DNA of 51,518 bases, taken from positions 1 through 51,518 of the forward strand of contig DRQG01000071.1 in NCBI GenBank assembly GCA_011369465.1. Direction: 5' to 3'. Source of the stretch: Caldithrix abyssi. GTDB taxonomy: Bacteria; Calditrichota; Calditrichia; Calditrichales; Calditrichaceae. A program made the position numbers and the translations under genes. The notes beneath the pieces are model-generated. The model searched no databases. It was given only the letters and a program-made list of their open reading frames with translations, and had not been told where the DNA came from. Positions 11,929 to 33,082 of this stretch are shown in pieces (within the stretch, counting starts at the first letter, position 1; each line of letters opens with the position of its first letter).

Positions 11929-12969
11929 TTAGAATCCAAGTTTCAATGTGAACATATTGTTAGCATCGAAGAATTCGGAATTGCGGAATGCGTAGTCAAC
12001 CCCCAGCACAACACCGCCTAAATCAAAATTCACACCGGCACCCAGTGTAAACGTATATAGCGGTGTAAAATCCGTGGCTGTATTCATGGTATAAACATAA
12101 CCGGCACGAAGAGCGATCATGTTATCATAATTATATTCCGCTCCAAATTTCATAGCGTCATTTTCCACATTGTTATTCTGGAAAACACCGGTCAGAATAA
12201 CATCGTTCTTGTCTGCAACCGTTGCCTTATATGCCAGACCAATTTCCAGATACGCAGGTAACTGATCCGAAGAGGCTTCCACGTTGTAGTATTTTACCAC
12301 ACCGTCGGAAGTGGTTACCTTCTGTGTTAAACCGGAACCCTGATATTGCATATTCGTACCGATATTCTTCAGTAGTACGGCAAACGAAACGCCATCAATG
12401 CCGGCCAGATTCTTATACTGGATACCAAGATCGAAAGCAAAAGCCGTTCCGGTAACACGCGGAATGGATTCGTAAATCATCTTGGCTTTAACACCAACCT
12501 GAATGGAATTGGTCAGTTTATTGGCATAGGTTAAGCCCATCGTAGACCAGGTGGGAGAGAAGGTTGCCCCGGAGCTCCCATCCATATCCTGTATTGTTGT
12601 AAGAGGAATATCACCAAAATCAAATGATTTGATGTCAAAACCCAGTACGCCCAGGGAACCCATATCAATACCAAGGCCCAGGTAATTAACATTAATATCA
12701 TTAAAGATTGTGTTTCTGGTAAATGTCCCCATAAATCCGCTCGACATTTCCGATAAACCGGCCGGATTCCAATACAGGGCATCTACGCCACTTGTATATA
12801 CGATGTTTGCGCCGCCCATTGCCAAATCACGGGCACTTACCGGTTGCTGCACCTGTACACCTGCAGCAGTACCAATTCTGGCTTTATCACCGGCATATAA
12901 TGGCAGCGAGACAATGAGCAAGAGTACGAGAGTAATAACTACTCCGTATCTTTTATTCAGTTTTATCAT
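11929..12969 (-). CDS. PorV/PorQ-family outer-membrane protein (cassette A)
   Basis: A 346-residue exported barrel. The signal peptide covers about 1-26 (ends PLYAGDK). The family signature follows: SARDLAMGGANIVYTSGVDALYWNPAGL near 45-73 and a C-terminal strand ending FTLKLGF. PorV relatives pick up T9SS cargo leaving the translocon. It is the last gene of the receptor/secreted-protein/PorV cassette (19531 to 11929), 49 bp after the large secreted protein, and is closed by the terminator at 11881. It is paralogous to the protein encoded at 25999-27018, which has the same place in cassette B. Whether it serves T9SS or a different export or uptake step is unknown. Confidence 0.85.
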   Translation of the reverse strand: MIKLNKRYGVVITLVLLLIVSLPLYAGDKARIGTAAGVQVQQPVSARDLAMGGANIVYTSGVDALYWNPAGLSEMSSGFMGTFTRNTIFNDINVNYLGLGIDMGSLGVLGFDIKSFDFGDIPLTTIQDMDGSSGATFSPTWSTMGLTYANKLTNSIQVGVKAKMIYESIPRVTGTAFAFDLGIQYKNLAGIDGVSFAVLLKNIGTNMQYQGSGLTQKVTTSDGVVKYYNVEASSDQLPAYLEIGLAYKATVADKNDVILTGVFQNNNVENDAMKFGAEYNYDNMIALRAGYVYTMNTATDFTPLYTFTLGAGVNFDLGGVVLGVDYAFRNSEFFDANNMFTLKLGF

Positions 12970-13018
12970 AGTATACTCCCTATCTATATTCTAACACTGC
13001 ATTATTAAACGTTCATTA

Positions 13019-16000
13019 TTAATAGTATTCCAGAATTTGTCTGCTCTGTACAATGAAGACCTTGAGCACTTTTTCTTTACTCAAATCCGGCATATCAATA
13101 TGAACAATATAAACGCCACTAGCTACCGGCAAGCCTTTTTCGTTTTGCAGATCCCATCTGAAGAACTGGCTCTCATCATCTTTTTCCAGCTTTCTTACTA
13201 AAGCGCCGGCCAGATTGAAAATCCGGAACGTAGCTTTTTGAGGCAGATGGTTAAATGTTACAAAACGATTAAAGCGACTGGTTTCCTGTGGATTATCTGC
13301 GTAATACGGATTGGGGAATACATTAACTTTCTCTACATCCGCTTTAGCCTGTTGGTCACTTTGTGATACTTTTGGAGCTGTAAAGACAAACTTATCATCC
13401 GTTGTATTCGGTTTCGTGGTAAGCAGACGGAATACTGCGCCATCATCCGGCATGGCAGCGTTGTAATCATCCGGTGAAGTAGCGACCGTAACATTACCAC
13501 CGTTCCAGTTGACCAGTACCATACGGTGCATACCAGCCCAGCCGTCATACGCTCCGGAAGCCCAACCCGGTTGATAATACCAATCTGCTCTTTGGCTAGG
13601 ATCGCTTTCCAAAGCGGCAATCATATTATCGTAGCCTTGCGAACCCGGAGTATTATCCGTCGGATGGATCCAATAGAATGGGTCAGTCCACGGATCGTTC
13701 TGGGCACTTGACACCTCATGATCGGCCCAACCGGCAGGATCAGAGGGATAAATGGCATCATACATCAGGTTAAATGCGCCATTACCATCATAATCATACA
13801 GGTAGGGTACCAACTGGTAATCATCACCAGGATCATTTATATCACCGATATCCCACAGTTCAAACGGAACATCGAGTACGGTTTCTGTATTCCAGTTATC
13901 GAATGCTTTACCATTACCGGTAAAACGGATTTCAAAATCATGCGGAATAAGGTTATGAATACCTTCACCGCCGGCTACTCCGTATCCACCGGTGTACTGG
14001 AATGTCCGGGCCATAAAGGCATCAAACGAACCACGACTGCCGTTTGGCCAGGTATGAACAAACCAGAACGAACCGTTTGCCATATTAGGATAAATATTGA
14101 AATCCGGATCCGGTACAGGGAAACCCTGCCAGGGTGCTGCCGCGGTAGCAGGAGGATCAAGCGGTCCGTTACCGTTGGCAACCAACTGGAATGATTTCAT
14201 CGTGAGAGCAGGACCGGCCACTTTGACGAGCAATCCGTCAAAGGTCAGAGCATCATTGGTGCTCAAATCCAGCAATTGTTTCTGGAACATCGTTACCGTA
14301 TCGCCGCTTGTCTTATCCAGTAATCCCCAGAAGGTATCTCCGTAGGTAGCCGAATTGGTATCTTGGTCGATATGGAAGAAGATCTCATATTCATGTCCGG
14401 TTGTTGCGCTCGGATCGACTACAGTGATCTCTACCTGTCCGTCGCTGGCGCCTGTGTGTTCTACGGAAATTTCCTGTCCGGCAACTCCTTCATATTCAAA
14501 ACCCGGTTTGGGATTCTGCGGTGTGACCGCGTAGATAGTTGCGGATGATTCCAAAGCGCGGTCACGGATCAGATTCGGATCATAGTTGTAAGCCGTTACG
14601 GTAAAGTAGTACGTTGAACCACGATATAACGGCAGATTGTTAATATAATCTTTATCGATCTTAATATAGCGTTGAACACCGGCGTCGGAACCGAACTGTA
14701 CCGGCAATTCAACAACCGTACCATATTCTGCAGAGAACATGGATGATTTAATGATACGTACACCATTAATCCGGTCAAAGGTTGCAATACGAACCGCTTT
14801 CGGATCGTTTACGTTGGCTGTCGGACTTGGTAACTGATAGACATTATACCCTTCAAATTCATAACCGATAATCTTGGTATTTTCTGTCTTGTCTACCGCG
14901 TTAGCATCCCAACCCCAATCCAGTATGATCGCGTCTTCCAATGCAGTCGCTTTTACCAGAGGAGCATCCGGCGGTTTCGGTACAACCTTGAATAAGCTGT
15001 TATAAACTGTTTGAGCAACTTCGTCCGTGCTTTTCATATCGGCAACAGATTGAAGTGCATTACCACCCAGACCACCAATCACAGCTACAACAACTTCCTG
15101 TACATCGCCGCTTTTCATCGTGAACGGACCGGTGGACTGCAGCATACGGCGGTCACCCGGTTGATATTTAACACCATCCACATCACCTTCACCGGTTACC
15201 GGATCACCGTCCAATGGGAACTTGGTATTTTGCCCTTCATTAGGACCAGTGGTATGTACAAACCAGGTTACACTGTCCACATCTGTGGTGGGGGCAAAAC
15301 CCCGCAACAGATTATACCATTGCAGCGTACCGTCATAAACACCCATGATGGGGTCAGACCATACCGTACCGGAGCCAAAATAACCGTAAGATGTCATAGG
15401 CAGGTTTTTATGATCCGGAACTTTTTTCAGGTCAAATACGGCTGTATCACCGGGAGAAGGAACAATCGGGCCCTGGAAAAAGTCGTAACCAACTGCAGGA
15501 GGTGCCAGGTTAAAGGCATCATACTGCGCATCGGTTGGAAAGCCGTTGTAAGCGAACATTAAACTTAGCGTGGTATCACAACCTGTTAAGTCGTTACCAT
15601 AGTCTCCAAGGTCAGGGTCACACCATTGACAAACATACATGGAATCAATGGTATAATCGGACTTATTAATGATTCTGTATTTTTTAAATACGATCTGTCC
15701 CAAACCGGTTGTAGGCTGATTATAAGCCCAGGAAGTGGTCTGAACTTCCAGGCCAAGGGGAGGCGCACCGGAAAGATCGTTAACACGACCTTCGTTACCA
15801 TCGTTGATTACGAACCAAACCACCTGGTCTGCATTGGCGATACCGGGATAATCACCCTGTTCCGGGTCGGGCATGCCATTTTCGTCCAATACCGGATTGT
15901 ATTCACCATTTTCATCAACATCGTAATAAGGAGCGCCCAAATCAACGGGCCAGTTTTTCCAGTCATCTTTATACTGTTCGATCATGGCATCGGCCATAGC

Positions 16001-16507
16001 ATCCGTTACCTCAGCAGGAGTAACGCCATTTTTCTCTGCGGCGTCCTGAATAACAGCAGAACGGCTTAGTGTTTTCCAATCGCTACGAATACGATAAATA
16101 CGTGCGCGATCGTCATTGGGGTCGCCGCCCCACCATCCGGGTTGGGTACCGCTACGATAGGTATTACCACCTACGCGCAACTGCGGTTTTGATTGATCCG
16201 GGTCCTGAATAATACCGCCCCAAACCAAACCATCACGATATATTGCTCCAGCCGTGCCCCGGGGATAGTATCCACCGGAACCGCCGGTAAACGGATCATG
16301 AGCAGAAACACCATCATGCCAGTACCAGTAAGCCCAGTTACCGATATTGGTCAATGATTCGGTTGTTTTTGCTGCTGCTGATTTATTCAATCTTATCTGC
16401 GTTTGCGGATTAGCTGTATTTTCTCTGGCCTGGGCATCGCTTGTATAAAAGACCACCAGCGCACCCACCAGTAAGATCCAGAGAAAATTCGAGATTCGTT
16501 TTATCAT
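13019..16507 (-). CDS. Large secreted protein with variant T9SS-like sorting domain (cassette A)
   Basis: About 1162 residues. The start is set at 16507 (MIKRISNFLW) because AAAGGAGAGAAC lies just upstream; an in-frame ATG at 16540 would add 11 polar residues before the signal peptide. The signal peptide ends near SDAQARE. No lipobox is seen. The body is rich in Asp, Asn, Gly, Trp and Tyr, includes a short Ca-binding-like DVDENGEYNP segment and the cysteine-bearing CQWCDPDLGDYGNDLTGC, and holds Fn3-like parts. The last 95 residues form a sorting domain beginning VFPNPYYADNP with the ASGVYIVHIDMP strand, then an extra tail SRQILEYY. It lies between a TonB receptor and a PorV paralog; function unknown. 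Similar parts occur in the protein encoded at 27114-30332. Confidence 0.85.
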   Translation of the reverse strand: MIKRISNFLWILLVGALVVFYTSDAQARENTANPQTQIRLNKSAAAKTTESLTNIGNWAYWYWHDGVSAHDPFTGGSGGYYPRGTAGAIYRDGLVWGGIIQDPDQSKPQLRVGGNTYRSGTQPGWWGGDPNDDRARIYRIRSDWKTLSRSAVIQDAAEKNGVTPAEVTDAMADAMIEQYKDDWKNWPVDLGAPYYDVDENGEYNPVLDENGMPDPEQGDYPGIANADQVVWFVINDGNEGRVNDLSGAPPLGLEVQTTSWAYNQPTTGLGQIVFKKYRIINKSDYTIDSMYVCQWCDPDLGDYGNDLTGCDTTLSLMFAYNGFPTDAQYDAFNLAPPAVGYDFFQGPIVPSPGDTAVFDLKKVPDHKNLPMTSYGYFGSGTVWSDPIMGVYDGTLQWYNLLRGFAPTTDVDSVTWFVHTTGPNEGQNTKFPLDGDPVTGEGDVDGVKYQPGDRRMLQSTGPFTMKSGDVQEVVVAVIGGLGGNALQSVADMKSTDEVAQTVYNSLFKVVPKPPDAPLVKATALEDAIILDWGWDANAVDKTENTKIIGYEFEGYNVYQLPSPTANVNDPKAVRIATFDRINGVRIIKSSMFSAEYGTVVELPVQFGSDAGVQRYIKIDKDYINNLPLYRGSTYYFTVTAYNYDPNLIRDRALESSATIYAVTPQNPKPGFEYEGVAGQEISVEHTGASDGQVEITVVDPSATTGHEYEIFFHIDQDTNSATYGDTFWGLLDKTSGDTVTMFQKQLLDLSTNDALTFDGLLVKVAGPALTMKSFQLVANGNGPLDPPATAAAPWQGFPVPDPDFNIYPNMANGSFWFVHTWPNGSRGSFDAFMARTFQYTGGYGVAGGEGIHNLIPHDFEIRFTGNGKAFDNWNTETVLDVPFELWDIGDINDPGDDYQLVPYLYDYDGNGAFNLMYDAIYPSDPAGWADHEVSSAQNDPWTDPFYWIHPTDNTPGSQGYDNMIAALESDPSQRADWYYQPGWASGAYDGWAGMHRMVLVNWNGGNVTVATSPDDYNAAMPDDGAVFRLLTTKPNTTDDKFVFTAPKVSQSDQQAKADVEKVNVFPNPYYADNPQETSRFNRFVTFNHLPQKATFRIFNLAGALVRKLEKDDESQFFRWDLQNEKGLPVASGVYIVHIDMPDLSKEKVLKVFIVQSRQILEYY

Positions 16508-16561
16508 GTTCTCTCCTTTACCATCAGTTTTATCCAACATTAATTCTCCCGATCGTTCTGA

Positions 16562-19531
16562 TTAATAGACAATCTTAAGGCCAAACAGGATCTGTCTCGG
16601 ATGATCCCAAAGCTCAAGGCCTAACTGAGAAAGGTAGGAAGAACCATTCACCGTATTCAAAGCGCGATACGTTTCGAGGTACTGTTCCCCGCCGTAGTTG
16701 TTGTAGTTAGGTCCATACCGGTTCGGATCGGTTATGTATCCGTCATCTGTATCGGAACCGGTTTCCTGATATACGTTGAGAACGTTCTTTGTGTTAAACA
16801 AATTCGTTACACGAACATATACCGTAGCCTTCATATTGTCCATAATGTCAAAGGATTTGTCAATTCTCAGATCCACATTTGACGTCCAGGGAGTCGTGGA
16901 AGCGTTGATGGGCTCCAGAGCTGTTCTGGAACGTGTATCGAACATATAATCAACACCACCGTCGTACGGTCCGGATTGACCGCCGACATTTTTAACCTTG
17001 GTATACGGGTGGCCACTATTGAAACGATACATCAGATTGATGCCCAGTTGTTCCAGGATGGGGCCGCCGTCATCTTTGCCAAAACGATAATCAAGAATCA
17101 GATTGCCGCGATGTGTCTGAGAAAAATCCAGCGGAGAGAGCACGGTGGGAGGCTGCGCGCCACGGTCAACGGCAGAAATATAAGCCGTTTTACCGGAACC
17201 CGTACCTTCCGCATCGGTCAAGGTATAATTGAGTTGTGCTTGCATGCGGTTATAGCGACGCATAGTCAGTTTGAATTCCAGACCTTTATTTGTAGCAAAG
17301 TCGCCATTCCGTAGAGCATTGTAGGTTACTATCGGAGCATTGGGTTCAGGAGTGATACGCGTTGCCTGAATTTGTCCCTGTACGTTTTTGTAAAAACCGG
17401 CAATGTCGATAGCTGCAAAATCACCCAATTGTTTGTTAAAACCGAGTTCGTATGAAGTGGTGAAAATCGGATCAAATCCATAGCCAACCGGTGTCAGGTA
17501 GAAATAACCACCGGTAACGATCTGACGACCATATTGATAGTTATTGTAGTAGAAGTTGTTAAACTCCGGCATCTGAACGAATTTACCATACTGGGTATAG
17601 AATTTGGTCGTTTCGCTAACCGGGAAGGATATACCAATACGCGGGCTCAGATGGATATGCGGTTTAATCTTAACCCACTCGCTCGGTAAAATTGTACCGG
17701 TTGTTTGATCCACTTGAGCATTTCTTGGATTTCTTAAGGTATAATCATCCGGATCAAAATAATCCAAACGCAGGCCCAGATTAATGATCAGATCCTGATA
17801 TTCAATTTTATCGGTAACATACGCGGCACCGATGATGGGATTCCTCGGACCGTCGAAACCACCGTCATTGATTTCATTACCTTTCAAATCATAACCGTAT
17901 GTATTGCCAATATAGCTTCTGTAGGTGGTATACGGTATTTCATCCAGAGAATTATAATGGGCGGAGACGTATGGATAGTCCTGATCCAGAAAAGCCATAA
18001 TAAACGGATTAACCGAATATTGTCGTATGGTGTAAGCACGACCGTTGAAACCGAACTTCACCTCATGGTGTTTGGTCAACTGGCTTACCAGATCGATTCC
18101 ACCGCCAAAATAGGTTTGTTTACTCTTGTTATAGGTTTCATAACCGCCGTTTCTGCTGAATCCTATACCGTTAAACCAATATTGATAAGGACCGCGCCAG
18201 GCATCTCTGTAGGTAACTTCGCCATTGGTGGCCTGAGCAACAGCGCTACTATCGGCCCATTTCTGCCAGTCATTGCCAAAATAAGGATCTTCTTCATCCC
18301 AGGCAGAATAAAAATAGCTCAAATTAACATCATAATAGGTTTTGGCACTGAGAACATGGGTAAACTTGCCGGTAAACAACATATGATTATTTACGTCCTC
18401 TACCCAACGTTTATTAAGATATGTCAACATAGGGGAGCTCGTAGAGACGCTTCTGCGATTACTGAATATACCGCTTAGGCGTAAACGGAAAGGATCAAAG
18501 TTAAACGAAAATGTGGAGTTTAACGTATAACGGTCTCTCCAGTTATTGGGCGTAAAACCATTCGGATAGGTCAGAGTAACCGTATCCGGAAAACCTCCGG
18601 ATACATCCGGGTTTGCCGGGTTACCATCAATTCTGTTTTCCAGGGTATAACCGGTGCTGAAACGTTTTCTGGTATCGCCGATGCTTTCCCATTCACCGGC
18701 CAGGAAAAAGCGGATATTGTTCGTAATCGGTCCGCTTACCGTAGCCGCTAAAATATGATCGCGATAAGAATAGGTATCAAGGAATTTTTCGCCTTCAGAG
18801 GCAAATTTATCCGTTTCACCGGTTATTGAAAAATGGAAATCCGGTGTACCCTGTTTCAGCTGGGTTTTTACGATACCCGAGTTGGCGTCACCATATTCGG
18901 CACCGAAACCACCGGTCAACACTTTAACTTCCTCAATCGCTTCCTGAATAACATAAACCTGATTGGTTCTGTTAACCGGGTTCAGGGTAGAAGCACCGTC
19001 CACATAATACCCAACTTCCTCACCACGGCCGCCGCGGATATTTATAGCGCCATTCTGAATAACAACGCTGGGCATATAAGCCATAAAACTCTGAACACCT
19101 CGAATCGGTGCATTTGCGATTTCTTCGGTGGTAAATTTAGCTGCACTGTAGGTAACATGCTTTTCTACGAGCGGACGCTCGGCAACAACAACTACAGCTT
19201 CTTCAAGTTGAAGTGTGGTGGGTTGAAGTTGAAAATTTTGTTCGGTGGTAACATCTGCGGAAACTTTAACGTTCTGAACTGCAACGGGGGTGTAACCAAC
19301 ATAGCTGGCCTCTAAGGTATAGGTTCCAACCGGAACATTCAAGATAATATAGTAACCATCAACGTCCGTTGTAGAACCCATAAATGTACCTTTAACAACA
19401 ACGTTCACGCCCGGTAATGGCTCGCCAGATTCTTTGTCGGTAACGACACCAACAATTTTACCTGACGATTGGGCCAAAACAACAAAAGGCACAGCTAAGG
19501 CAAGTAATAGAATAAGCACTTTTTTGAACAT
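16562..19531 (-). CDS. TonB-dependent receptor with carboxypeptidase-regulatory-like N-domain (cassette A)
   Basis: An outer-membrane active transporter of 989 residues. The signal peptide is about 1-20 (ending VVLAQ). A carboxypeptidase D regulatory-like domain follows at about 24-110 (GKIVGVVTDKESGEPLPGVN). The plug domain is at about 125-240 (INIRGGRGEEVGYYVDG, then GGFGAEYGDANSG) and a long beta barrel runs to the C-terminal strand QILFGLKIVY, which ends in an aromatic residue. This layout matches SusC-like receptors, but no SusD lipoprotein follows; the next gene is the large secreted protein. TTTGGAGGTTAAGGG precedes the ATG. A consensus promoter, a CRP-like operator and a two-codon ORF lie in its leader (19594-19685). 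The ligand is not predictable. Confidence 0.93.
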   Translation of the reverse strand: MFKKVLILLLALAVPFVVLAQSSGKIVGVVTDKESGEPLPGVNVVVKGTFMGSTTDVDGYYIILNVPVGTYTLEASYVGYTPVAVQNVKVSADVTTEQNFQLQPTTLQLEEAVVVVAERPLVEKHVTYSAAKFTTEEIANAPIRGVQSFMAYMPSVVIQNGAINIRGGRGEEVGYYVDGASTLNPVNRTNQVYVIQEAIEEVKVLTGGFGAEYGDANSGIVKTQLKQGTPDFHFSITGETDKFASEGEKFLDTYSYRDHILAATVSGPITNNIRFFLAGEWESIGDTRKRFSTGYTLENRIDGNPANPDVSGGFPDTVTLTYPNGFTPNNWRDRYTLNSTFSFNFDPFRLRLSGIFSNRRSVSTSSPMLTYLNKRWVEDVNNHMLFTGKFTHVLSAKTYYDVNLSYFYSAWDEEDPYFGNDWQKWADSSAVAQATNGEVTYRDAWRGPYQYWFNGIGFSRNGGYETYNKSKQTYFGGGIDLVSQLTKHHEVKFGFNGRAYTIRQYSVNPFIMAFLDQDYPYVSAHYNSLDEIPYTTYRSYIGNTYGYDLKGNEINDGGFDGPRNPIIGAAYVTDKIEYQDLIINLGLRLDYFDPDDYTLRNPRNAQVDQTTGTILPSEWVKIKPHIHLSPRIGISFPVSETTKFYTQYGKFVQMPEFNNFYYNNYQYGRQIVTGGYFYLTPVGYGFDPIFTTSYELGFNKQLGDFAAIDIAGFYKNVQGQIQATRITPEPNAPIVTYNALRNGDFATNKGLEFKLTMRRYNRMQAQLNYTLTDAEGTGSGKTAYISAVDRGAQPPTVLSPLDFSQTHRGNLILDYRFGKDDGGPILEQLGINLMYRFNSGHPYTKVKNVGGQSGPYDGGVDYMFDTRSRTALEPINASTTPWTSNVDLRIDKSFDIMDNMKATVYVRVTNLFNTKNVLNVYQETGSDTDDGYITDPNRYGPNYNNYGGEQYLETYRALNTVNGSSYLSQLGLELWDHPRQILFGLKIVY

Positions 19532-19602: not shown

Positions 19603-19634
19603 AAGGCACCTCCCTAACTTAATATACATACTTA

Positions 19635-22800: not shown

Positions 22801-23194
22801 GCGCGGCCGTAACCATGTGCTTATATTCCAGAGAGCCGAACTGAACATCGCTTATCTGTTTTAACTGATGAATAAAATCGTTTAGCTCTTCCGGCTTATA
22901 CGAGTTGCTTAAACGAACCCGGTATATTTTTGAAAGATCCACACCGTCAATAACATCGGTTTCATCTGCGGAAGTTAGCCAACGCTCCACCTTTACGGCC
23001 CCAATGGCTTTTAACAGATTATTAAGGGCCTGATTGTTTTTAACCAGTACACCATCTTTGGAAAGAGACCCGATTTGCAGTGCCGATGCCTGCGGCCGGA
23101 TATCAAACAAAATCTGGTTTGGATAATAACTGGTTTGGCTTAATAAGGTACAGAAAGATATAAGTACCAGAAAACCCGATCGTATTAGACTCAT
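19880..23194 (-). CDS. Secreted subtilisin-like protease (S8) with VCBS/FG-GAP repeats and T9SS sorting domain
   Basis: Cell-surface or secreted serine protease of 1104 residues. The signal peptide is about 1-20. A propeptide region runs to about 140. The S8 catalytic triad is Asp174 (GVVDSGFD), His254 (SHGTHVAG) and Ser418 (SGTSMASP), with oxyanion Asn351 in AAGN. An acidic insert at 195-220 (DVDGDG, then DDDGNGYVDD) looks like calcium-binding loops between Asp and His. Residues about 600-1000 hold repeated D-x-D-x-D-G/N motifs of VCBS/FG-GAP type, probably a beta propeller. The C-terminal 90 residues form a canonical T9SS type A sorting domain (YQNYPNPFNPQTTIEY to KKMLLLK). It has its own terminator and a CRP-like site about 100 bp upstream. 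Confidence 0.93.
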   Translation of the reverse strand: MSLIRSGFLVLISFCTLLSQTSYYPNQILFDIRPQASALQIGSLSKDGVLVKNNQALNNLLKAIGAVKVERWLTSADETDVIDGVDLSKIYRVRLSNSYKPEELNDFIHQLKQISDVQFGSLEYKHMVTAARYIPNDPDLSRQWYMDKIMAPEAWALWGDSIPGSREILVGVVDSGFDYLHPDLQDVLYVNPGEDVDGDGQITAVDSNNVDDDGNGYVDDFHGWDFVGANKDIGQQPDNDVRPPQAGEGAGLSHGTHVAGVIAAQTDNNIGMSSISYRAKILVTKHAYDNALQYPFYIIDGYSGILYCAKMGADVINCSWGGTGGYSFYEKYVIKQASTTYGSIVVCAAGNDASNNDNKPHYPSDFEQSIAVAALSSGDERASFSNYGEVIDISAPGVGVYSTIHANAGSYASWSGTSMASPVVAGSFALLKAWYPDSSRDWLVDRLLSTADDIDNRNASYAGKLGSGRVNVYNAIASGFLPDLRIKDYVFINEGTEISSGLKPGDTVDVRVQIENNPLWRSAREVTVTLHAVEGKAGLIDSIAVIGDVASGDTLSNLSDEISLFILEDAVYEPIRIPVTVTAVTEDGAPYQKEQEIKVQLSLEADGFPAGGENINVPIALEDITDDGQKEIIAIEDNYYCTVIETDGSVLSGFPVSTGGYTTAPPIVADVDADGQPEIVIMDRSGLLRIFDSSGNMEKEIDTDERVYGNIAAANLDNDDDLEIIFGTMGREVHVIKPDSTGLAGFPYSVGGTIRYGIALADFTGDGIVELVFGSSDKKLHVITAQGDSVPGFPLDLPSRTIQTPVIGTTGEELQIYFVTNDDTLYQVSATGTVNWKYGLNTSVNAPLALEDVDNDGSLDVAVVCSDGTIHLVNSDGQAKNGFPYPVNEPISTSPVFADLNNDGLMEIALSSQTGYLYVLKAEGMMYPNFPALLDDQLNGSSAINDLDDDDRLEIATGGSNGVHLSKFTDTQGSNSYWMTAYGNNARTSNYSDGVTGLQRGEREKIASEFEVYQNYPNPFNPQTTIEYRIARPADVRLDIFNIVGERIVSVMETGLQPGRHAYVWNGANSNGRPVSSGLYVYKISIRMKNGQSFSTVKKMLLLK

Positions 23195-23376: not shown

Positions 23377-25914
23377 TTATTTCAAAAGCAGCATACGTTT
23401 GTATAACTGAACGTCGCCGCTCTTCAGTTTATAGAAATAAATGCCGGAGCCTACCTGTTTGCCGGCATTGTTTAACCCGTTCCACTCCAGCTTATGCAGG
23501 CCTGCTTTTGCCTTTCCGTTATACAGCGTTGCAATACGCTGACCCAGTACATTATAAACATCCAACCGCATATCCTGTCCGGCAGCTTTGGCCGGAACTA
23601 CAAAAGGAATCGTTGTTTGCGGGTTAAACGGATTAGGATAATTATCACCGAGGATAAAACGGTCGGCAAACTCGGGCATACCGTTTCCTATGGCTGTTGT
23701 ATCTTGCGGATAATTTGCCTTGGACGTATCCACATAAACCCGGATCAGAGCGTTCACGGAATCAACCACACTCCAGGTAGTATCATCCACCTGCACATAG
23801 GTGTGCATATAGATGGGTTGAGTGGTATCTGCGGCGATATGCGGACTACGCGTATAGCGGTCGTACACAATAAAGAAAGCGCCGGTGTCAATTTCTACAG
23901 TCTGGTCAAACTGAATAGTGTTGAACATTCCCGGTTCCAAACCGGCGGAAATGATCTTTGAAGCCAATAAAGAATCCGGCATGCCGGTTTCCAGGTTTTC
24001 GCTGTAGGCATAGAACTTACCTTTACCCTGCCAATCGCGTCCATAGACCTTGCTGGTATCAAAAAAGGCGCGGATTGTACTGAAGGATACAGGAAAATAC
24101 TCGGGCGTAAATTTTACGGCCATTTTAACCCGCTTACCTGGATCATAATAGCCGTTCCAGTAGTTGTTGTCATACCGGAATTCCTTCAGAACGGAAGGAA
24201 CGATATATCCGCCCACAAAATCGGACCAATCGGAGGTTCCTTCATACTGGATGGCAGCGCGCATGGTGTAATAATATACCTGAAAAGGTTCGGCCGTCGT
24301 GTCCACAAAGGAGGATTCTGTAGTTATTCCCTGTAAATGGACATATTGGTCTCCCGGCGTAGTGCGCCAGATTTCGTAGGTCTTTCCTTCTTCCCAGTCC
24401 CAGGTAATCGTAATAGTCGTATCTTTATTATTGACTTCCGCATTCAGATTTTGAGGCGCATCAGGAGGATTAATGGGTGAGTAAACGACAATGTCATCTA
24501 CCATAAGTCCCGGCCCAATCGGATCATCGCCGTCGGAGTTGAAGAAAATACGCAGATAGACATCCTGCCCGGCAAAACGGGATAGATCGAGCGGAGAGGT
24601 GTTCGGTAAAGCACCCCAATAATAACTGAAGGATGTCCATTCTTCTATACCAGCTACATTATTATATACCCAATGCGACCAGCCCCAGGTTCCGTCACTG
24701 CGCTGTACCCAATCGCGCCAGATACCTTCAAAATCGGTACTGTCCACCGGACGCACCTGCACCTGCCACCAGTCTCCGTAATTATCATCCGCAAAATAAG
24801 GCAATTGCAATAAATCTACATAAATGGGCGAGGTATCCGGCAAAGCAATAGGACCGGTGGTGTAATAATTTTGCATCCAACGGTTATATGTAGAATCGAG
24901 TGAGAAGTTATCACTACCATGTTGAACCACTGCTATATTTGTTCCGCTGGGTAAAAACTCAGGATTTTCATCATAGGGCGGCACCAGGTCATTATGAGCG
25001 GTTACATGCCAGAGATCGCCCCCGGGAGGCGGTACAAAGAGGACGGATTTACCGACCATTTTGCCGGAGGTTCCGTAATTGGCAAAGAAAACGGTATCCG
25101 GTGAATACACTTCGATACTGTCGATTTGCCAGCCAAACAGATCCGGACCGCCGTCTTCCGTAGAATAGCCCATATCGGAGGCAAAGGCAAAACGCAGCAT
25201 AACTGCCGTATCGGCGCTGCAAAAATCGCTTAAATCGATGGTTTCCTTGCGCCAGGTTGTTTGAGCGCCGGCCCAGGAGGGAATGCCGGTTCCTTCATTC
25301 ATGCCCTGATCGGGATGACCAAAGGCCCAGCTACTGCTTACATTGTATGTAGAAAAATCCAGTACCTGCCAGGTGGCCCCGCTGTCGGTAGAGATGCGTA
25401 CATTCATTCCGTCCCAGCCGTCAAATTCACCGCCGGAGGCATCGGAGGCGCCGCCGGGATCTTCAATTTTATAGCGCTGATAAAACGTGAATGTTGCTGC
25501 GGTATCATTTAGCAGAATAAGCGGTGTTTCCATCACCTGGTACCAATGATTAGCATAACCGCCGTTGTCTCCAAACTCTTCGTTGGCCAGCCACCAGGAA
25601 GAGTCTTCCAGGGCATTCCAGGTAGTTAGATGCCAGTAACTGGGGTCCGGTTGCGGAATGATTTGTCCGCTGGTCCAGCGGTGCCAAACCCCGCCTTCTT
25701 CAAAATCTTCAAACCAGAGCACACCGCCCGGGAAGTCTTCGTTTACTTTGTTAAAACGATGATTCTGCGACGCCTTCACCTGTTCCACAGGCACCTTATA
25801 CTGCATCTTTTCCGGTGTGTTTTTTAACATATCTTCCCGGCTGGTAACTTCCGAGGCAAAAACACCACCCAATATTGATAGAACCAAAATAAACGTAGGT
25901 AAGTATGTTTTCAT
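23377..25914 (-). CDS. Secreted jellyroll/Fn3 protein with T9SS sorting domain
   Basis: 845 residues. The signal peptide is about 1-20 (ending GGVFAS). Two MAM-like or choice-of-anchor jellyroll regions are suggested: one near 65-275 (LWFEDFEEGG to WQIDSIEVYSPD) and one near 360-485 (GLMVDDIVVYSP). A fibronectin type III domain follows (PDAPQNLNAEVNN, near 487-570). The C-terminal 90 residues are a canonical T9SS type A sorting domain (LGDNYPNPFNPQTTIPF to YKRMLLLK). It starts 84 bp after the cassette B porV stop with no hairpin between them, so it may belong to the same transcript. I recognise no catalytic residues; an adhesive or carbohydrate-binding role is possible. Confidence 0.85.
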   Translation of the reverse strand: MKTYLPTFILVLSILGGVFASEVTSREDMLKNTPEKMQYKVPVEQVKASQNHRFNKVNEDFPGGVLWFEDFEEGGVWHRWTSGQIIPQPDPSYWHLTTWNALEDSSWWLANEEFGDNGGYANHWYQVMETPLILLNDTAATFTFYQRYKIEDPGGASDASGGEFDGWDGMNVRISTDSGATWQVLDFSTYNVSSSWAFGHPDQGMNEGTGIPSWAGAQTTWRKETIDLSDFCSADTAVMLRFAFASDMGYSTEDGGPDLFGWQIDSIEVYSPDTVFFANYGTSGKMVGKSVLFVPPPGGDLWHVTAHNDLVPPYDENPEFLPSGTNIAVVQHGSDNFSLDSTYNRWMQNYYTTGPIALPDTSPIYVDLLQLPYFADDNYGDWWQVQVRPVDSTDFEGIWRDWVQRSDGTWGWSHWVYNNVAGIEEWTSFSYYWGALPNTSPLDLSRFAGQDVYLRIFFNSDGDDPIGPGLMVDDIVVYSPINPPDAPQNLNAEVNNKDTTITITWDWEEGKTYEIWRTTPGDQYVHLQGITTESSFVDTTAEPFQVYYYTMRAAIQYEGTSDWSDFVGGYIVPSVLKEFRYDNNYWNGYYDPGKRVKMAVKFTPEYFPVSFSTIRAFFDTSKVYGRDWQGKGKFYAYSENLETGMPDSLLASKIISAGLEPGMFNTIQFDQTVEIDTGAFFIVYDRYTRSPHIAADTTQPIYMHTYVQVDDTTWSVVDSVNALIRVYVDTSKANYPQDTTAIGNGMPEFADRFILGDNYPNPFNPQTTIPFVVPAKAAGQDMRLDVYNVLGQRIATLYNGKAKAGLHKLEWNGLNNAGKQVGSGIYFYKLKSGDVQLYKRMLLLK

Positions 25915-25998: not shown

Positions 25999-27018
25999 CT
26001 AAAACTTGAATTCCAATGTATAGTTGTGCACATAACCCAACAAGCCGTAATTGTTAAATGCATAATCTATCTTCAAATTGATACCCAGCCGGGTGAGGTC
26101 AAAGCCAACTCCGGCCGTGATATCCGCCTGATCATAGTTGATTTTGTACCCGGCGCGGAAAGCCAGCATGGCATTCCATTCGTATTCCATACCTATATTA
26201 TAGCGCAGAACATGATCGATCGGGTCGTTTCCTTCCAACAGCAGGGTAAGGCGATTGGATTCGCTGTACATAAATTCCGATTCGGCGCCTAACAGGTCGG
26301 TGCGAACACCCAAACGGAACAACAACGGTATGGGCCACTCTTCCGTTTTCCAGCGGCCGCCGTTTTCATAGCGGATACTGGTCTGATCATTTTCTATGGG
26401 CTGATTCAAATCCGGCCCGTCAAATTTCATTTTTCCGCCGAAATTGGACAGCACCATACCCAGCTTTATGCCGTAAATTCCGGTATCAAATTGAGAACCA
26501 ATGTCAAAGGCGATGGTGGAGGCTTCTTCACGAAACAAGCGCTCGCTGATATATTTGATGGTAACCCCCAGATCAAAGCGCGTGGTTAAACTGCGTGCTA
26601 CCGTGATACCGATGGCTGAATGGCCGGTATCAAACGTATCGCCGGTTCCTTCCGGATCTTCAATAGTGGTGCGTTCAATATCGCCGGAAGATAGATACAG
26701 CACCGATACGCCCACAGATGTATTGTTATCGATGGGAATGACGGCGCCGAGAAAGTCGTAGTTAATGCCGGCAAACAAATAAGTGCGCGAAACGCTGAGC
26801 GCAAATTGATTTACCTTTTGTATTCCGGATGGATTCCAGTACATGGCCGTAGCGTCATTCACCAGTGCGGAGTAGGCATCTCCCAGAGCGGTTCCTCTGG
26901 CACCCGCACCCAATTTTAAAAATTGCGCCGTTCCTGTGCCTACTTTCGAGAAATCATCCTGAGCGAAGGCGCCAATACTCAGTAATAATAGGATACTCAG
27001 CACAACTTTAAGTTTCAT
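25999..27018 (-). CDS. PorV/PorQ-family outer-membrane protein (cassette B)
   Basis: 339 residues with a signal peptide (about 1-19, ending GAFAQ). The family signature FLKLGAGARGTALGDAYSAL, then MYWNPSGI, lies near 33-65. It ends with the strand HNYTLEFKF, an outer-membrane barrel type terminus. The L-x-x-G-A-x-x-x-x-x-G-x-A pattern is closer to classical PorV than the cassette A paralog, which has SARDLAMGGA. CAGGAG lies before the ATG. It follows the 1072-residue secreted protein by 95 bp, matching the gene order of cassette A. Confidence 0.88.
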   Translation of the reverse strand: MKLKVVLSILLLLSIGAFAQDDFSKVGTGTAQFLKLGAGARGTALGDAYSALVNDATAMYWNPSGIQKVNQFALSVSRTYLFAGINYDFLGAVIPIDNNTSVGVSVLYLSSGDIERTTIEDPEGTGDTFDTGHSAIGITVARSLTTRFDLGVTIKYISERLFREEASTIAFDIGSQFDTGIYGIKLGMVLSNFGGKMKFDGPDLNQPIENDQTSIRYENGGRWKTEEWPIPLLFRLGVRTDLLGAESEFMYSESNRLTLLLEGNDPIDHVLRYNIGMEYEWNAMLAFRAGYKINYDQADITAGVGFDLTRLGINLKIDYAFNNYGLLGYVHNYTLEFKF

Positions 27019-27113
27019 CTATGCACTCCTGTTTATCGATCTGATTGAATGGATGTGTTATCCTTTTTTGTGAAACGTATTGTTCACTTCGCAGAATAAC
27101 ACACTTTTTAACT

Positions 27114-30100
27114 TTATTTGATAATGACGAATTTGCCCGTATAGGTTTGACCGTTTTCCGCTTCCACCACAAAAACATACAAACCGGGTGCAACATCCTG
27201 ACGGTTCACACTCAACAAATCCCAATCCAGGCTGCCGTCATACAAGCTGTTGTGTTCCAATGTAATCACATTTTCACCGGCAACGGTAAAGATGTGCACT
27301 TTACATTTAGCCGGTAAGTTCGTGAATTGTATCTTGCGGACAAAATCATCCGTCTCCCACTGAGCATGGACAATATAGGGATTTGGTACGACTTTAACTT
27401 TTGACAGATTGCTTTCGGTTACCTCTTCCACATTAAATACATTGGCCGTGTTGATCACAAAGCCATCACCCCGTTCGAACGGTTTGCGGATGGGAATCAG
27501 AAATTCATCGCCAGCCTCCCAATCCACGTTTTCATCCGTCCATTCAAAGCTAAAGCGGGATAAAGTAAGCACGGTATCGCCCCAGGCATCTTCGGGTATA
27601 TTGAAATCATACAAAGAGAAAGCCTGTCCGGATTCGAACTGAGTTCCGGTATTGGCAACCACTTTTCCTTTTACATTGGTAACCGTGTTAATTACTTCAA
27701 ACGGTATTTTAAACCGTTCCGTGAATTCGCGCGTGCGCGGATTGTATTTGTACGCTGTTTCCGCATCTTCACCGACGAAACGAATGATATAATCCGACCG
27801 TGTTTTTTTACGCAAAATCGGCTTAACAAAACGATAATCGCATTTCGACTCCGGAGTCCACTTCAGATCTTCATCGAGAATTACTATATCGTCCGTCATC
27901 TCCACAAACATGCGTAAACCGTCAAAAATGGGAATATTTTCCGGCTGGCTTTTATCCAGCACTGCGTAGTCTTTACTGTCTTTGATCAAAGTATCGCCCA
28001 GAGCCTTATCTATAACGCTAAAACGCTGTGACCCCGGTACGATAATGGTTTCTTCCGGATCCGAATAATCACAATCAAAAAGTACCTGGTACTCATGGCC
28101 TGTTATATCCGGCGGAACGATCACTTCCACTTCGAATTTTCCCGTTCCCACAGTGCCTTCCGATTTCTGAACTACCAGCTCCTTCAGAGTTGTGTTGCCC
28201 GCTGACCGATGGGGAATTGCCTTTACAATATGATCCAGCACTGTGCTGTTGGCCAGCAGGTTTTCCATAGAGGGGATTTCGAAGGTCAGATTTTTCGATT
28301 CGCCCACATTGTCGGGATCCGTAATAGGATCACCGGGGATAAAACCGCGGTCGTATGCACATACGGCATAAAGATATTCCGTACCGTTTGTTACATCCGT
28401 ATCTTCAAATTTGTAAACAACACCGGTGTTGTTACCCAAAAAACGATGCGGGGCAACCCGATCATAACCTTTAATATCATTGATCAAATCATACTGCGCG
28501 ATGGGTTTCCAGTAGTTCGTTTTGGTTTGCTCATCGTACATGGCTTCGCCCCAGGTTTTACCGTTATCGGTACTTTTGTAAATGCGAAAGCCTTCAAAAT
28601 CCTTATAACCGGTTATGATATCCACATCATTTACCGATGCGGCATCCCAATAGAGGGTTACTTTTTCATCCTCTTCTTTCACATAAACCTTAGGTGCTTT
28701 GGGTGCCCGTGCGCCCTGATAGTTATTATCATACATCAACTGAGCTATTTCTGCGTTCACTCTCAGATCGGCGGTATCGGCGCCCATTATAACGGCAAAA
28801 GAAAACGGAACCGAGTCGCCCGGTGCAATGGTGAAGGGGCCCGAAGACATGATAAACACACAGTCCAATCCGTCGGGGAATTCCAGTTCCAACCCTTCTA
28901 TTGAATCGAAACGCGGGTTGAGCGGACCGTCAACGATTTCACCGCCGATGTCATATTTTACGGGATGAAAATAGTGTTCTCTGTCGTAGGCATCGAGATT
29001 GGTGGTATCACCTGCCAGAATTTTATATTGAATCTCTTCTTTATTTGGCTTATAGGGTGTTCTCCCGTCACCGGAATAGTTATTCGGCGGCTGATCGGCC
29101 GCGCCCGGACGGTAATACCAGTCGAACCAGTGCCATCCGGTAAGCCCGAGTGGATCGCCGGGCAGGATATCGGGGAAACCATCGCCATCCAGATCAACCG
29201 GCTCTGTAGCATACGGCGTTTCCAGAAGTTTTACGGAGGCATAAGCCAGATCCTCATCGTAAATGCTCATAGCACGGACGTGTTTGGCGCCGTTGAATTT
29301 ATCATAGATGTACCCGTAATCCAGGTCGGTATTATAACCCATCATATCGTTCAGGTTGGAATCGTCATACCGGTATCCCAATATGTCCGTATTATACGCA
29401 TCGGCGTCAAAATAAAACCCGGCATATACACCCTCGTAGGTATAGCCGCCTGTTTCGGGGTAAATTTCATCCGATATATTGTACAAATACATGCGGAAGA
29501 AAATGATATCTTCGGAGATGCTGGCGCTGTAAGAGTAACCCGATACTTTTGCTCTTATGCCGATGGGATATCCCTGCGTCGTATCAATATCGCGGGTGGC
29601 AAAGCGGTCATCCAGTTCAAAATAGATATCCTGATCGGATACAAACACACCCTCCAGCTCATTTTGACCGGTACTGTCTGCAGGATCGATGGCATAAGGA
29701 CCCGGCCAAACATGTTCCTCGATACCCTGAGCGTTGGTTTTTAGCGGCCAGGTATCGGGGATATCGCTGGTGGCCATCAACGGATACTGATCTTCGGGAA
29801 AGGTGTACAACCCCTGTTCCCCATAATATTTGCCTGCCGTGGCCAGAGGATTGTGCAGATAAATCTGGGATTTTTCCCGTGACTCCCAGTCGCCGCGGTT
29901 ATAGTTGGGATAGGTGCGGTCCATCCACGATTCGGAAACCGTAGGCCCCCAATAGGTGGTATCCGTACCAAAGGTGCGGAACACCCCTTCCTTAATCATA
30001 TACATGTCTTTTTTGCCCACCGCCCAGGGGTAGGGATCACCATTCTCATCTTTGCCTGGGATTCCGACAATCAGGTCGATATCCGGAATGTAGGAAAAGT

Positions 30101-30332
30101 TACCCCAAAGTCCTTCCGGAGGGGTAACACCGCAAAACCTCCCAAAGTTATGAACGGCTATTTTCAGTTTACCTTTATCCAGATAGGCCCGGGCACGGCT
30201 GATGAGCGGATCATCCGGAGCCTCTGCAGTCGTTTTTTGCAGGCCCTTGTTCTTTTTTACAGGTACAATTCCCTGAACCGTAACAATGCCGGTAAGTATC
30301 AGTATGAATAATAATTTTATCATACGCACCAC
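27114..30332 (-). CDS. Large secreted protein with variant T9SS-like sorting domain (cassette B)
   Basis: About 1072 residues, probably starting at GTG 30332 because AAAGGA lies 6-7 nt before it; an ATG at 30323 would shorten it by three residues. The signal peptide ends near VTVQGI. The body is acidic and Tyr/Asp-rich, with a Ca-binding-like DLDGDGFPDILPGD segment, an SSGPFTIAPGDSVPF strand pair and Fn3-like parts. The last 90 residues begin VVPNPYIVHAQWE and end ENGQTYTGKFVIIK, a sorting-domain form without the NYPNPFNP motif. Shared segments with the cassette A protein (GPFT-x5-GD, ITGY-EFEGY/KDFEGF, V-x-PNPY) support common ancestry. The receptor gene ends 14 bp upstream. Function unknown; a receptor partner is inferred. 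Confidence 0.85.
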   Translation of the reverse strand: MVRMIKLLFILILTGIVTVQGIVPVKKNKGLQKTTAEAPDDPLISRARAYLDKGKLKIAVHNFGRFCGVTPPEGLWGNFSYIPDIDLIVGIPGKDENGDPYPWAVGKKDMYMIKEGVFRTFGTDTTYWGPTVSESWMDRTYPNYNRGDWESREKSQIYLHNPLATAGKYYGEQGLYTFPEDQYPLMATSDIPDTWPLKTNAQGIEEHVWPGPYAIDPADSTGQNELEGVFVSDQDIYFELDDRFATRDIDTTQGYPIGIRAKVSGYSYSASISEDIIFFRMYLYNISDEIYPETGGYTYEGVYAGFYFDADAYNTDILGYRYDDSNLNDMMGYNTDLDYGYIYDKFNGAKHVRAMSIYDEDLAYASVKLLETPYATEPVDLDGDGFPDILPGDPLGLTGWHWFDWYYRPGAADQPPNNYSGDGRTPYKPNKEEIQYKILAGDTTNLDAYDREHYFHPVKYDIGGEIVDGPLNPRFDSIEGLELEFPDGLDCVFIMSSGPFTIAPGDSVPFSFAVIMGADTADLRVNAEIAQLMYDNNYQGARAPKAPKVYVKEEDEKVTLYWDAASVNDVDIITGYKDFEGFRIYKSTDNGKTWGEAMYDEQTKTNYWKPIAQYDLINDIKGYDRVAPHRFLGNNTGVVYKFEDTDVTNGTEYLYAVCAYDRGFIPGDPITDPDNVGESKNLTFEIPSMENLLANSTVLDHIVKAIPHRSAGNTTLKELVVQKSEGTVGTGKFEVEVIVPPDITGHEYQVLFDCDYSDPEETIIVPGSQRFSVIDKALGDTLIKDSKDYAVLDKSQPENIPIFDGLRMFVEMTDDIVILDEDLKWTPESKCDYRFVKPILRKKTRSDYIIRFVGEDAETAYKYNPRTREFTERFKIPFEVINTVTNVKGKVVANTGTQFESGQAFSLYDFNIPEDAWGDTVLTLSRFSFEWTDENVDWEAGDEFLIPIRKPFERGDGFVINTANVFNVEEVTESNLSKVKVVPNPYIVHAQWETDDFVRKIQFTNLPAKCKVHIFTVAGENVITLEHNSLYDGSLDWDLLSVNRQDVAPGLYVFVVEAENGQTYTGKFVIIK

Positions 30333-30346
30333 GCTTGTTCCTTTCT

Positions 30347-33082
30347 TTAAAAAGCAAATTCCAATGTGAATTCAATCGCACGACGAGTACCGTACATATA
30401 CGGCCTATCAAACAACGTTTTGGAATAAAATCCCATGTCGATTAAGCGGTTAAGCTGCGGGCCCGGATCATCTGCTTTTCCGGTTGAGGGCCATATATCA
30501 ATGGGATTCTTCCAGTCAAACAGATTTTGCACCACCACTCCAAAAATCATGCGGTAGTTAAATATATTGATAAATTTCCGGAAATTCAGGTTAATAATGG
30601 TGTACCATGGACCCCGCTCGGAATTGGTTTCACCGGCTACATTGCCCACAACCGGCGTATATGGCCAACCGCTCATGGCCTTAAATATCAGGTTTAAACT
30701 TGTTTGCTGGAAAGGTTTAAATCCGAACAAGTCCAACCCCCGATCTTTGGGAACGTGTAAATTATAAAATAAACTTAAATCATGGGTGCGGTCGTAGCTC
30801 ATCAATATTTCACGTTTGGGCATGGTACGCGGTGTATGGGTGCTGCGATACCCTTCCCATGGGTCTCGTCTGTTTGCCGTAGCCCGCGAAAGCGTATATT
30901 GAAAAACGAGAGAAGACGTCTGCTGACGCCAACGAAGAACCACATCCACACCCCGCGACGTAGCATAATCCGTATTCAGAAAGGTAGTATATGAATAGGG
31001 AAACTGCGGAATACGCTCCGTTGAGGTCAACCCGGAATATTCCTTGGACCAGCCCATAAGCTGGACGATAACCTGATCACTCAATCCCACGTTCAAACCA
31101 AATTCATAGGCGGTCATGCGTTCATTGGTTAATCCGGCATTCCCGACAATCGGAGAAGGGGTGGTTATATCTTTGATGTCATTGATATAGGTATTACGGT
31201 ACGTGGGTCGTTGAACAAATTTTCCATAGCCAAAAGTAAAGGTGGCATTATCGGTTATAACATGCGAAAAACCCAACCGCGGACTTATGGCATATTCCCA
31301 CTTCGAATCCACTAAAACCTTGTCTTCCGGGTTGGCGTAGGGATCGGCCCAGGTTTTTGAATGGGCGTTGAACATATCCATCCGGATGCCGAGGTGAATG
31401 GTCATATAATCATATTCGATCAGATCCTGGATATAGAGACCAAATTCTTCCGGATGTTTGGTATAGCGTTCAACATAGGGCGAAATCAGCCAGGGCAGTT
31501 GGATTTCATTGATCATCAGGTTGTGTCTGCGATATGATGCACCCGTTTTAATTTGATGATGTTTGGTAAGCTGACCCAGTAAATTGAAAAATCCTTCATA
31601 CGTTTCGGCATAACTACGATGGTAATAACGGTCATGCCCGGAAATGGCATACTCAAAATAATAGGGATTGTTTTCATAATCGGGATCGCCGCGAGGGGCC
31701 TCATATTCATCCGGGTTTAGATAGCGGCCATCTTCTTTGCCGTTATCCGTAACCCCGTTAAACACCTCCTGATAGAAACGGGACACACGAATATCATAAA
31801 ACACTTTTTGTGACAGCTGATGGTTGAACATGATCGCCTGTCGGTCGGAAGTTTGAGTTACGATATTACGTCCTTCTTCGTGATATTGATAAAAGGAATT
31901 TGCCAGATTGGCCGTTCGGAAGGTGGCCTGTAAATTCCAGAATGAAGCAGAAAATTTCATCGAATTGGACAGGGGAAACGATACTTTGGAATACAGGTCC
32001 CAACTGTTAACAAATCCCATGCCGCGCCAACCGGGAATCGTATCCAATCTGTTTAAATGAAAATTGCGCTCGGAATCCTGGGGCTGAGACGGATCATACG
32101 TTAAATTGTCAAATTCATAAGCGCGAAAGGCACTGCGTCTTTTGTGTCCGGTAATGATGAACTTGACCTTGTTCCCTGTAAACGGCACCGGTCCGCCGAT
32201 GCCGCCGGTTATTTCTCGGTAATCCAGTTTAGCATCCTGTTCCAGAGCAATATCCAAAGGGGGCCTGGAATCGGGGCTGAAAAAGGTGGCCGGATTAGCA
32301 AAGCGTCCCAAATTGGATACCTGCACCCGGATATTACCTTCCAGCCGGTCTCCGCCATCCCGCGTAACTATATTGACCATCTGAGACATGGCGCCGCCAT
32401 ATTCGGCGTCAAATACGCCGGTCTTGATATCAATCTGGCGGGCGGCAAAGGGGTTTAACTGTGTGTAAGTATAACGACCGCCGTAAAAGGGATTGGTAAT
32501 GAACATACCGTCGATAGTGTAACCAATTTCCCCATAGCGGCCGCCGCGTACATGAATTTCTTCTATACCGCGGTCTTCAAAGCCGGGAATCTGCTGAACA
32601 CTACTTTCGATTTTGATAACACCAGCCTGTGAAGCGACCAGATCCGAAAAATCACGCACCGGCATGGTTTGTATTTCTTCGGTATTGATGGTTACTTTTT
32701 TTGCTGTTTCATCTTTTTGTACTTTAAAACCTTCCGCCGTAACAACAATTGCTTCACCTTCGGCAACCTCTTCCACCAGTTCAAAATTAACGGGTGTGGT
32801 TTGGTCCAGAATCACCTGCACACCCGGGTGTTTTACCGTGCGGTACCCCACATACGAAACGATGATGGTGTACTCGCCAACCGGAACGTTAATGATGTAA
32901 TAATCACCATCCGCATCCGTGGAACCGCCAAGATAGGTACCTTCCAAAATAATATTGGCGCCTACAAGCGGTTCTTTGGTACGTGCATCTACAACGTGGC
33001 CGGCAATTTTTCCGGTTGTTCCTGCAAAAAGAGAATAGGAAGCAAACAATATTAACCATAAACCACTGACAATCCTTTTCAT
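30347..33082 (-). CDS. TonB-dependent receptor with carboxypeptidase-regulatory-like N-domain (cassette B)
   Basis: 911 residues. The signal peptide is about 1-20 (ending YSLFAG). The regulatory-like domain (GKIAGHVVDARTKEPLVGAN) is at about 24-105, the plug at about 125-240 (IHVRGGRYGEIGYTIDG, then GVFDAEYGGAMSQ) and the barrel runs to the end (IEFTLEFAF). It is clearly related to receptor A: both have a YGKFVQ-P segment in the barrel and a parallel plug. The next gene starts 14 bp later. No SusD-like lipoprotein is present. No consensus promoter was found in the 100 bp upstream, but the repeat cluster at 33211-33503 lies just behind it. Confidence 0.92.
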   Translation of the reverse strand: MKRIVSGLWLILFASYSLFAGTTGKIAGHVVDARTKEPLVGANIILEGTYLGGSTDADGDYYIINVPVGEYTIIVSYVGYRTVKHPGVQVILDQTTPVNFELVEEVAEGEAIVVTAEGFKVQKDETAKKVTINTEEIQTMPVRDFSDLVASQAGVIKIESSVQQIPGFEDRGIEEIHVRGGRYGEIGYTIDGMFITNPFYGGRYTYTQLNPFAARQIDIKTGVFDAEYGGAMSQMVNIVTRDGGDRLEGNIRVQVSNLGRFANPATFFSPDSRPPLDIALEQDAKLDYREITGGIGGPVPFTGNKVKFIITGHKRRSAFRAYEFDNLTYDPSQPQDSERNFHLNRLDTIPGWRGMGFVNSWDLYSKVSFPLSNSMKFSASFWNLQATFRTANLANSFYQYHEEGRNIVTQTSDRQAIMFNHQLSQKVFYDIRVSRFYQEVFNGVTDNGKEDGRYLNPDEYEAPRGDPDYENNPYYFEYAISGHDRYYHRSYAETYEGFFNLLGQLTKHHQIKTGASYRRHNLMINEIQLPWLISPYVERYTKHPEEFGLYIQDLIEYDYMTIHLGIRMDMFNAHSKTWADPYANPEDKVLVDSKWEYAISPRLGFSHVITDNATFTFGYGKFVQRPTYRNTYINDIKDITTPSPIVGNAGLTNERMTAYEFGLNVGLSDQVIVQLMGWSKEYSGLTSTERIPQFPYSYTTFLNTDYATSRGVDVVLRWRQQTSSLVFQYTLSRATANRRDPWEGYRSTHTPRTMPKREILMSYDRTHDLSLFYNLHVPKDRGLDLFGFKPFQQTSLNLIFKAMSGWPYTPVVGNVAGETNSERGPWYTIINLNFRKFINIFNYRMIFGVVVQNLFDWKNPIDIWPSTGKADDPGPQLNRLIDMGFYSKTLFDRPYMYGTRRAIEFTLEFAF

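Follow-up and report, generated by a model that had tools for sequence, protein, structure and literature searches.

In Flavobacterium all type A cargo of the type IX secretion system (T9SS) leaves via one PorV and the genes of type B cargo have those of cognate SprF/PorP carriers downstream of them (PMC12618676), carriers to which the type B cargo remains bound (PMC9143113). In the beta-barrel assembly machinery (BAM) complex of Bacteroidota a FadL-family barrel also anchors a surface protein, as seen in BamG-BamH (PMC12611786). Here we describe a cassette of three genes encoding a TonB-dependent receptor (T), a giant secreted protein (G) and a PorV-family barrel (P) in the order T>G>P, which occurs twice in a 51,518-nucleotide stretch of DNA from Caldithrix abyssi (phylum Calditrichota; GCA_011369465.1, contig DRQG01000071.1; the window hereafter) and which the initial annotation had put forward as a possible SusCD-like system built on type IX secretion. 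Our analysis shows that the triplet is a conserved and co-diverging unit in several phyla, and we found no description of it in the open-access literature searched.

The same three-gene order had been noted twice on one strand of the window and all six genes were recovered there (Table 1), with T and G and then G and P separated by 54 and 49 bp in cassette A and by 14 and 95 bp in cassette B. The proposed paralogy of the two cassettes was borne out at all three positions, with 26% identity between the receptors over their full length (E 1e-69), 24% between the giant proteins over 634 residues (E 6e-15, the C-terminal domain (CTD) also being homologous) and 29% between the barrels (E 6e-37). 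An alternative in-frame ATG at 16540 would extend G_A to 1173 residues.

PorV-family genes of the window genome were located by a genome scan and the 20 stretches surrounding them were examined (L001-L020), which yielded nine copies of T>G>P on one strand, further copies being cut by contig ends and one cassette carrying a 204-residue reading frame between G and P. A closed 5.0-Mb genome from the same family has 17 cassette-type receptors, of which 16 have G next to them downstream and 15 have G and then P, while none of its nine other TonB receptors has this arrangement. Placing G and P at random in this genome gave a mean of 0.0005 triplets compared with the 15 observed. For a cross-phylum sample named genomes were scanned with an alignment of G alone, ignoring T and P, and the 80 loci returned came from Neomarinimicrobiota, KSB1, Calditrichota, Ignavibacteria/Melioribacteraceae, WOR-3, Cloacimonadota and others. 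T lay directly upstream in 56 of the 73 untruncated G loci, P directly downstream in 52 and both in 50, with median gaps of 13 and 12 nucleotides. The initial annotation had reasoned that families found mostly unlinked would speak against a functional unit, and the survey came out the opposite way. Of 36 genomes from the phylum of the window 35 encode G, and a single genome can hold as many as 18 strong matches.

Variants of the arrangement were also seen. A conserved T-G-P-G form with a second shorter G right behind P occurs in two genomes of one family (L006 of the window genome, 7210-15136, and G029:C1:1984183-1992089), and at G029:C1:979049-997388 a T-G-P triplet is followed by three more tandem G genes, so that one receptor may be served by several alternative surface partners. 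Solitary G genes in Neomarinimicrobiota (L031, L032, L035, L036 and L042) lie among metabolic genes in a conserved context.

The members of a cassette have also diverged together. Mantel correlations across nine paralogous cassettes from a single genome were 0.75 for T and G, 0.74 for G and P and 0.68 for T and P (all p < 0.01), and since these are paralogues within that genome species history is no confounder; the cassettes diverged as units. The correlation with P could not be separated between the body of G and its CTD, so the Mantel results are silent as to which domain P binds. In a tree of P paralogues the cassette P cluster better than shuffled labels without forming a single clean clade (4 changes, long branches), and a single origin of P is therefore not claimed.

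T has a signal peptide, a CarboxypepD_reg-like N-terminal extension, a plug, a 22-strand barrel and a TonB box, whose sequence in almost every one of the 44 cassette receptors fits E-x-[VI]-V-V-x-A. An AlphaFold2 (AF2) model of T_B (predicted local distance difference test (pLDDT) score 81, predicted template-modelling score (pTM) 0.82) shows the plug and 22 strands. The nearest solved folds by Foldseek are PirA, Cir, FptA, FepA and BtuB, with neither SusC nor RagA among the best 50 matches listed. The earlier label of T as SusC-like holds for the N-terminal extension and plug, the SusC model TIGR04056 being matched at E<1e-3 by 43 of the 44 cassette receptors with the match in T_B confined to these two parts. 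It fails for the predicted fold, which comes nearest to the PirA/Cir/FepA/BtuB type, and for the model score, the window receptors reaching 71-75 bits against a cut-off of 368.

G carries both features of T9SS cargo, an N-terminal signal peptide and a C-terminal T9SS domain, and the two giants of the window are, as first described, secreted proteins of more than 1000 residues without a lipobox, and both have signal peptides. A lipobox pattern was found in 2 of 52 relatives of G, probably by chance. Conservation within G is highest in its CTD, a divergent domain of the type-A/PorZ/PorU-like kind, and among the 52 CTDs 49 match the PorZ CTD, 46 the PorU CTD and 31 the type A model TIGR04183 (cut-off 23 bits), with a single match to the type B model TIGR04131. 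G_A exceeds the type A cut-off (25.1 bits) and the CTD of G_B alone lies at it. In the window genome (L001-L020) a model derived from the CTD of G scores 86-133 bits on cassette G compared with 19-39 bits on other CTD proteins. The body of G found no homologue in Pfam or PDB sequence searches of the giants and no match to sortase or PorZ models. The predicted structure of G_B is all-beta with FN3 and Ig-like domains (pLDDT 81, pTM 0.74), and Foldseek matches it to FN3 proteins including FN3 ectodomains, an S-layer protein, PorZ and PorU. G has no SusD family match in Pfam, and neither its all-beta model nor the Foldseek matches listed contain a SusD fold. Foldseek also returned GH94 phosphorylase structures at a probability of 1.00 with low TM-score. 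Sequence kinship with the GH94 supersandwich was unsupported by profile comparison (hhalign probability 0.9%), and the resemblance remains a lead. In three loci from Ignavibacteria/Melioribacteraceae a CxxCH haem-type motif stands right after the signal peptide of G (CISCHKDL in L075 and L083, CSSCHTNL in L093), which suggests a haem-bearing version of the protein.

The PorV label given earlier to P is right at the level of the PorV/PorQ family. Both window barrels pass NF033709 (cut-off 90 bits), all 44 cassette P match it and the best relative in the PDB is the PorV of the SprA complex (6h3i). P is neither the PorV nor the PorQ equivalog, the PorV model NF033710 giving 67.8 and 79.3 bits against a cut-off of 250, and as a member of the PorV family it is not a PorP/SprF carrier. 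Of 25 cassette genomes 24 have a gene for the translocon protein SprA, which in the window genome is one frame of 2091 residues; the genome showing none is a WOR-3 of 1.2 Mb. Several non-cassette PorV-family genes of the window genome lie one or two genes away from a CTD protein.

SusD is scarce where the cassette occurs. Two of the 25 cassette genomes scored above the cut-off of the SusD-like model PF14322, as did 4 of 36 genomes of the phylum, none of them the window genome, and a Bacteroides control was positive. Several cassettes clearly lie in polysaccharide-utilisation-like loci, and by a loose homology test at least one sugar-utilisation gene is present at 19 of 57 cassette loci. Upstream neighbours include LacI regulators (8 of 82), alpha-amylases and CBM9 proteins, and downstream neighbours include GH94 phosphorylases (6 of 92), GH2, glucoamylase, GH9, GH3, GH16, CBM20 and sugar ABC transporters. 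Locus L002 of the window genome reads LacI, CTD protein, T, G, P, GH94, CBM30-glucoamylase-CTD, GH2, and L067 from Melioribacteraceae has the same genes with the last two exchanged. GH94 genes number only two in the window genome, with one of them at L002, and LacI genes number three, with two on cassette contigs. Other CTD proteins are frequent beside the cassettes (29 of 82 upstream and 24 of 92 downstream neighbours). Elsewhere the neighbours are a glycerol-3-phosphate oxidase (L005), AstE/AspA-like enzymes, M16 peptidases and TRAP transporters. Genes for SurA/PPIase-type periplasmic chaperones (Rotamase, 5 of 82 upstream neighbours) precede T in L007, L068, L070, L079 and L080. The window cassettes themselves are adjoined just by CTD proteins and a subtilase, and of these the subtilase and the MAM-like protein are ordinary T9SS cargo.

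Table 1 Features of the two cassettes and their surroundings in the window
Feature	Position	Strand	Length (aa)	Parts	Evidence
T_B, TonB-dependent receptor	30347..33082	-	911	Signal peptide; CarboxypepD_reg-like N-terminal extension 24-112; TonB box EAIVVTA ~110; plug ~125-240; 22-strand barrel	Pfam CarbopepD_reg_2, Plug, TonB_dep_Rec; AF2; Foldseek
G_B, giant secreted protein	27114..30332	-	1072	GTG start; signal peptide; all-beta N-terminal region ~45-535; FN3-like domain ~545-665; beta domains; CTD ~975-1072, type-A/PorZ/PorU-like, KVVPNPY...GKFVIIK	
P_B, PorV/PorQ-family outer-membrane barrel	25999..27018	-	339		NF033709 190.2 bits; PF19572 PorV 40 bits
T_A, TonB-dependent receptor	16562..19531	-	989	Architecture as T_B	
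G_A, giant secreted protein	13019..16507	-	1162	CTD ~1053-1154	TIGR04183 25.1 bits; PorZ CTD E 1.9e-12
P_A, PorV/PorQ-family barrel	11929..12969	-	346		NF033709 158.7 bits
S8 subtilase, between cassettes	19880..23194	-	1104	FG-GAP repeats; CTD	PF00082 E 1.9e-48; FlgD_ig/Por_Secre_tail
MAM-like secreted protein, downstream of P_B	23377..25914	-	845	Type A CTD	TIGR04183 34.6 bits; PF20773
Secreted protein, upstream of T_B	33727..35913	-	728	Type A CTD	TIGR04183 42 bits
Secreted protein, upstream of T_B	36014..38089	-	691	Type A CTD	TIGR04183 40.8 bits
Third PorV-family barrel, no adjoining T or G	6156-7109				NF033709 176 bits (genome scan)

The cassette is not SusCD by membership, its receptors scoring below the SusC model and its partner having neither the SusD fold nor a lipobox. 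The scarcity of SusD, the presence of T9SS machinery and the sugar-operon context together make a system that is SusCD-like in function and built on type IX secretion the best reading, so that the earlier proposal stands for function (a conserved unit with T9SS present, SusD rare and sugar operons nearby) and falls for the SusC model and SusD fold. We put a probability of roughly 0.6 on the cassette encoding a TonB importer whose surface partner is exported by the T9SS and retained by a PorV-family carrier of its own, a system working as SusCD does with other parts. G would be made with a Sec signal peptide, leave via the SprA translocon by means of its CTD and be passed to P, the dedicated carrier encoded just downstream. 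P would stay bound and anchor G at the cell surface, as SprF/PorP do with type B cargo, and G would capture or present a ligand above T, serving it as SusD or BtuG serve their receptors. T, with its TonB box, plug, 22 strands and SusC-type N-terminal extension, would then import the ligand on TonB energy, the paralogous cassettes presumably handling different ligands. Of this picture the gene unit, the protein architectures, the presence of SprA, the scarcity of SusD and the sugar-operon setting of some cassettes are observed, and the export of G, its retention by P, its contact with T, a physical complex of the three, the substrate and its import are inferred.

A number of observations weigh against this reading. 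About two thirds of the cassettes, both of those in the window included, have no recognisable sugar gene adjoining them, and SusD scarcity was judged by a single SusD model, PF14322. A second closed relative keeps T>G>P in just 7 of 12 cases, and the solitary G genes of Neomarinimicrobiota have no adjacent T and P. Co-divergence of T, G and P is what partners should show, but plain operon co-inheritance would produce it too. Many members have a CTD below the type A cut-off, and as the type A CTDs of Flavobacterium share one PorV (PMC12618676) it would be out of the ordinary for a type-A-like CTD to have a carrier of its own.

The strongest competitor, which we consider unlikely, is that the cassette is a functional operon for one nutrient in which G never touches T, with G, a binding protein at the surface or secreted and held by P, concentrating substrate or organising enzymes while T imports the products independently, as happens at loci whose TonB receptors and secreted enzymes share no more than their regulation. 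The many CTD proteins encoded alongside need no contact with T and at least two G per T exist in some loci (T-G-P-G in L006, four G and one T in G029), but G is the one cargo kept across phyla at a set position, with T on one side and P on the other, and it has diverged in step with T. It is much less probable that the G paralogues are a family of FN3/Ig-like surface-layer proteins or adhesins with the receptor carried along for other reasons. The domains of G and its matches to FN3 ectodomains and an S-layer protein would fit such a coat, yet in the closed genome G is linked to 16 of 17 cassette-type receptors and to none of the nine others, and hydrolases, phosphorylases and LacI regulators are among the neighbours. 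Slightly further down we place the idea that T is not a nutrient importer and assists G or P at the outer membrane, in their export across it, their assembly or their energisation, a role reportedly proposed for the TonB-dependent protein Oar towards PopC in Myxococcus. The close genetic association of T with a secreted protein and the WOR-3 cassette genome showing no SprA are consistent with this; however G has a T9SS-type CTD, T resembles a normal TonB-box importer and sugar operons point to import, and with SprA in 24 of 25 genomes export of G by T in the absence of a T9SS was judged unlikely. Functionally meaningless chance adjacency or recent local tandem duplication, to which the side-by-side position of the two window cassettes might point, is refuted by the linkage statistics (null 0.0005) together with the 24-29% identity between copies, the nine dispersed copies and the conservation across phyla.

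Should the proposed importer with a T9SS-exported partner be correct, type-A-like T9SS signals can have dedicated carriers and the principle of one cargo and one carrier would extend beyond type B. It would also connect TonB import with type IX secretion, which have so far been separate fields of study. Surface capture of large nutrients by polymer-degrading bacteria outside the Bacteroidia is poorly known, and annotators would be helped to recognise nutrient loci by a unit that spans the phylum, with G matching up to 18 times in a genome. We regard it as an even bet that the cassette represents one more class of TonB-dependent import complex at the cell surface, with a T9SS-exported partner and dedicated PorV-family barrel, which serves as a main means of nutrient capture in several lineages of the Fibrobacterota-Chlorobiota-Bacteroidota (FCB) superphylum with few or no SusD (Calditrichota, KSB1, Neomarinimicrobiota, Ignavibacteria and WOR-3).

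The cassette shares with SusC/SusD (RagA/RagB) of Bacteroidota a CarboxypepD_reg-extended TonB receptor followed by a large surface partner, many paralogues and loci with glycoside hydrolases resembling polysaccharide utilisation loci. It differs in that SusD is a helical lipoprotein whereas G is all-beta and FN3/Ig-rich with a T9SS CTD and plain signal peptide, and in having a PorV-family barrel as fixed third member and a receptor that fails the SusC model and folds nearest to the FepA/Cir/BtuB type. The type B systems SprB-SprF and PG1035-PorP-PorE likewise place a dedicated FadL-like barrel directly downstream of T9SS cargo with proposed surface retention (PMC12618676, PMC9143113), but the CTD of G is type-A/PorZ/PorU-like, with the type B model matched once in 52, P belongs to the PorV family and the unit includes a TonB receptor. 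With the PorU-PorV and PorZ-PorQ attachment complex the likeness lies in the CTDs of G, which score best against those of PorZ and PorU, and in the presence of both proteins among its Foldseek matches, while the body of G without sortase or PorZ match, the many paralogues and the receptor linkage set it apart. Finally BtuB-BtuG, the vitamin B12 system, also pairs a TonB receptor with a surface-exposed partner other than SusD, and BtuB1-BtuG1 is among the Foldseek matches of T; BtuG is described as a lipoprotein whereas G is T9SS-type cargo with a barrel of its own.

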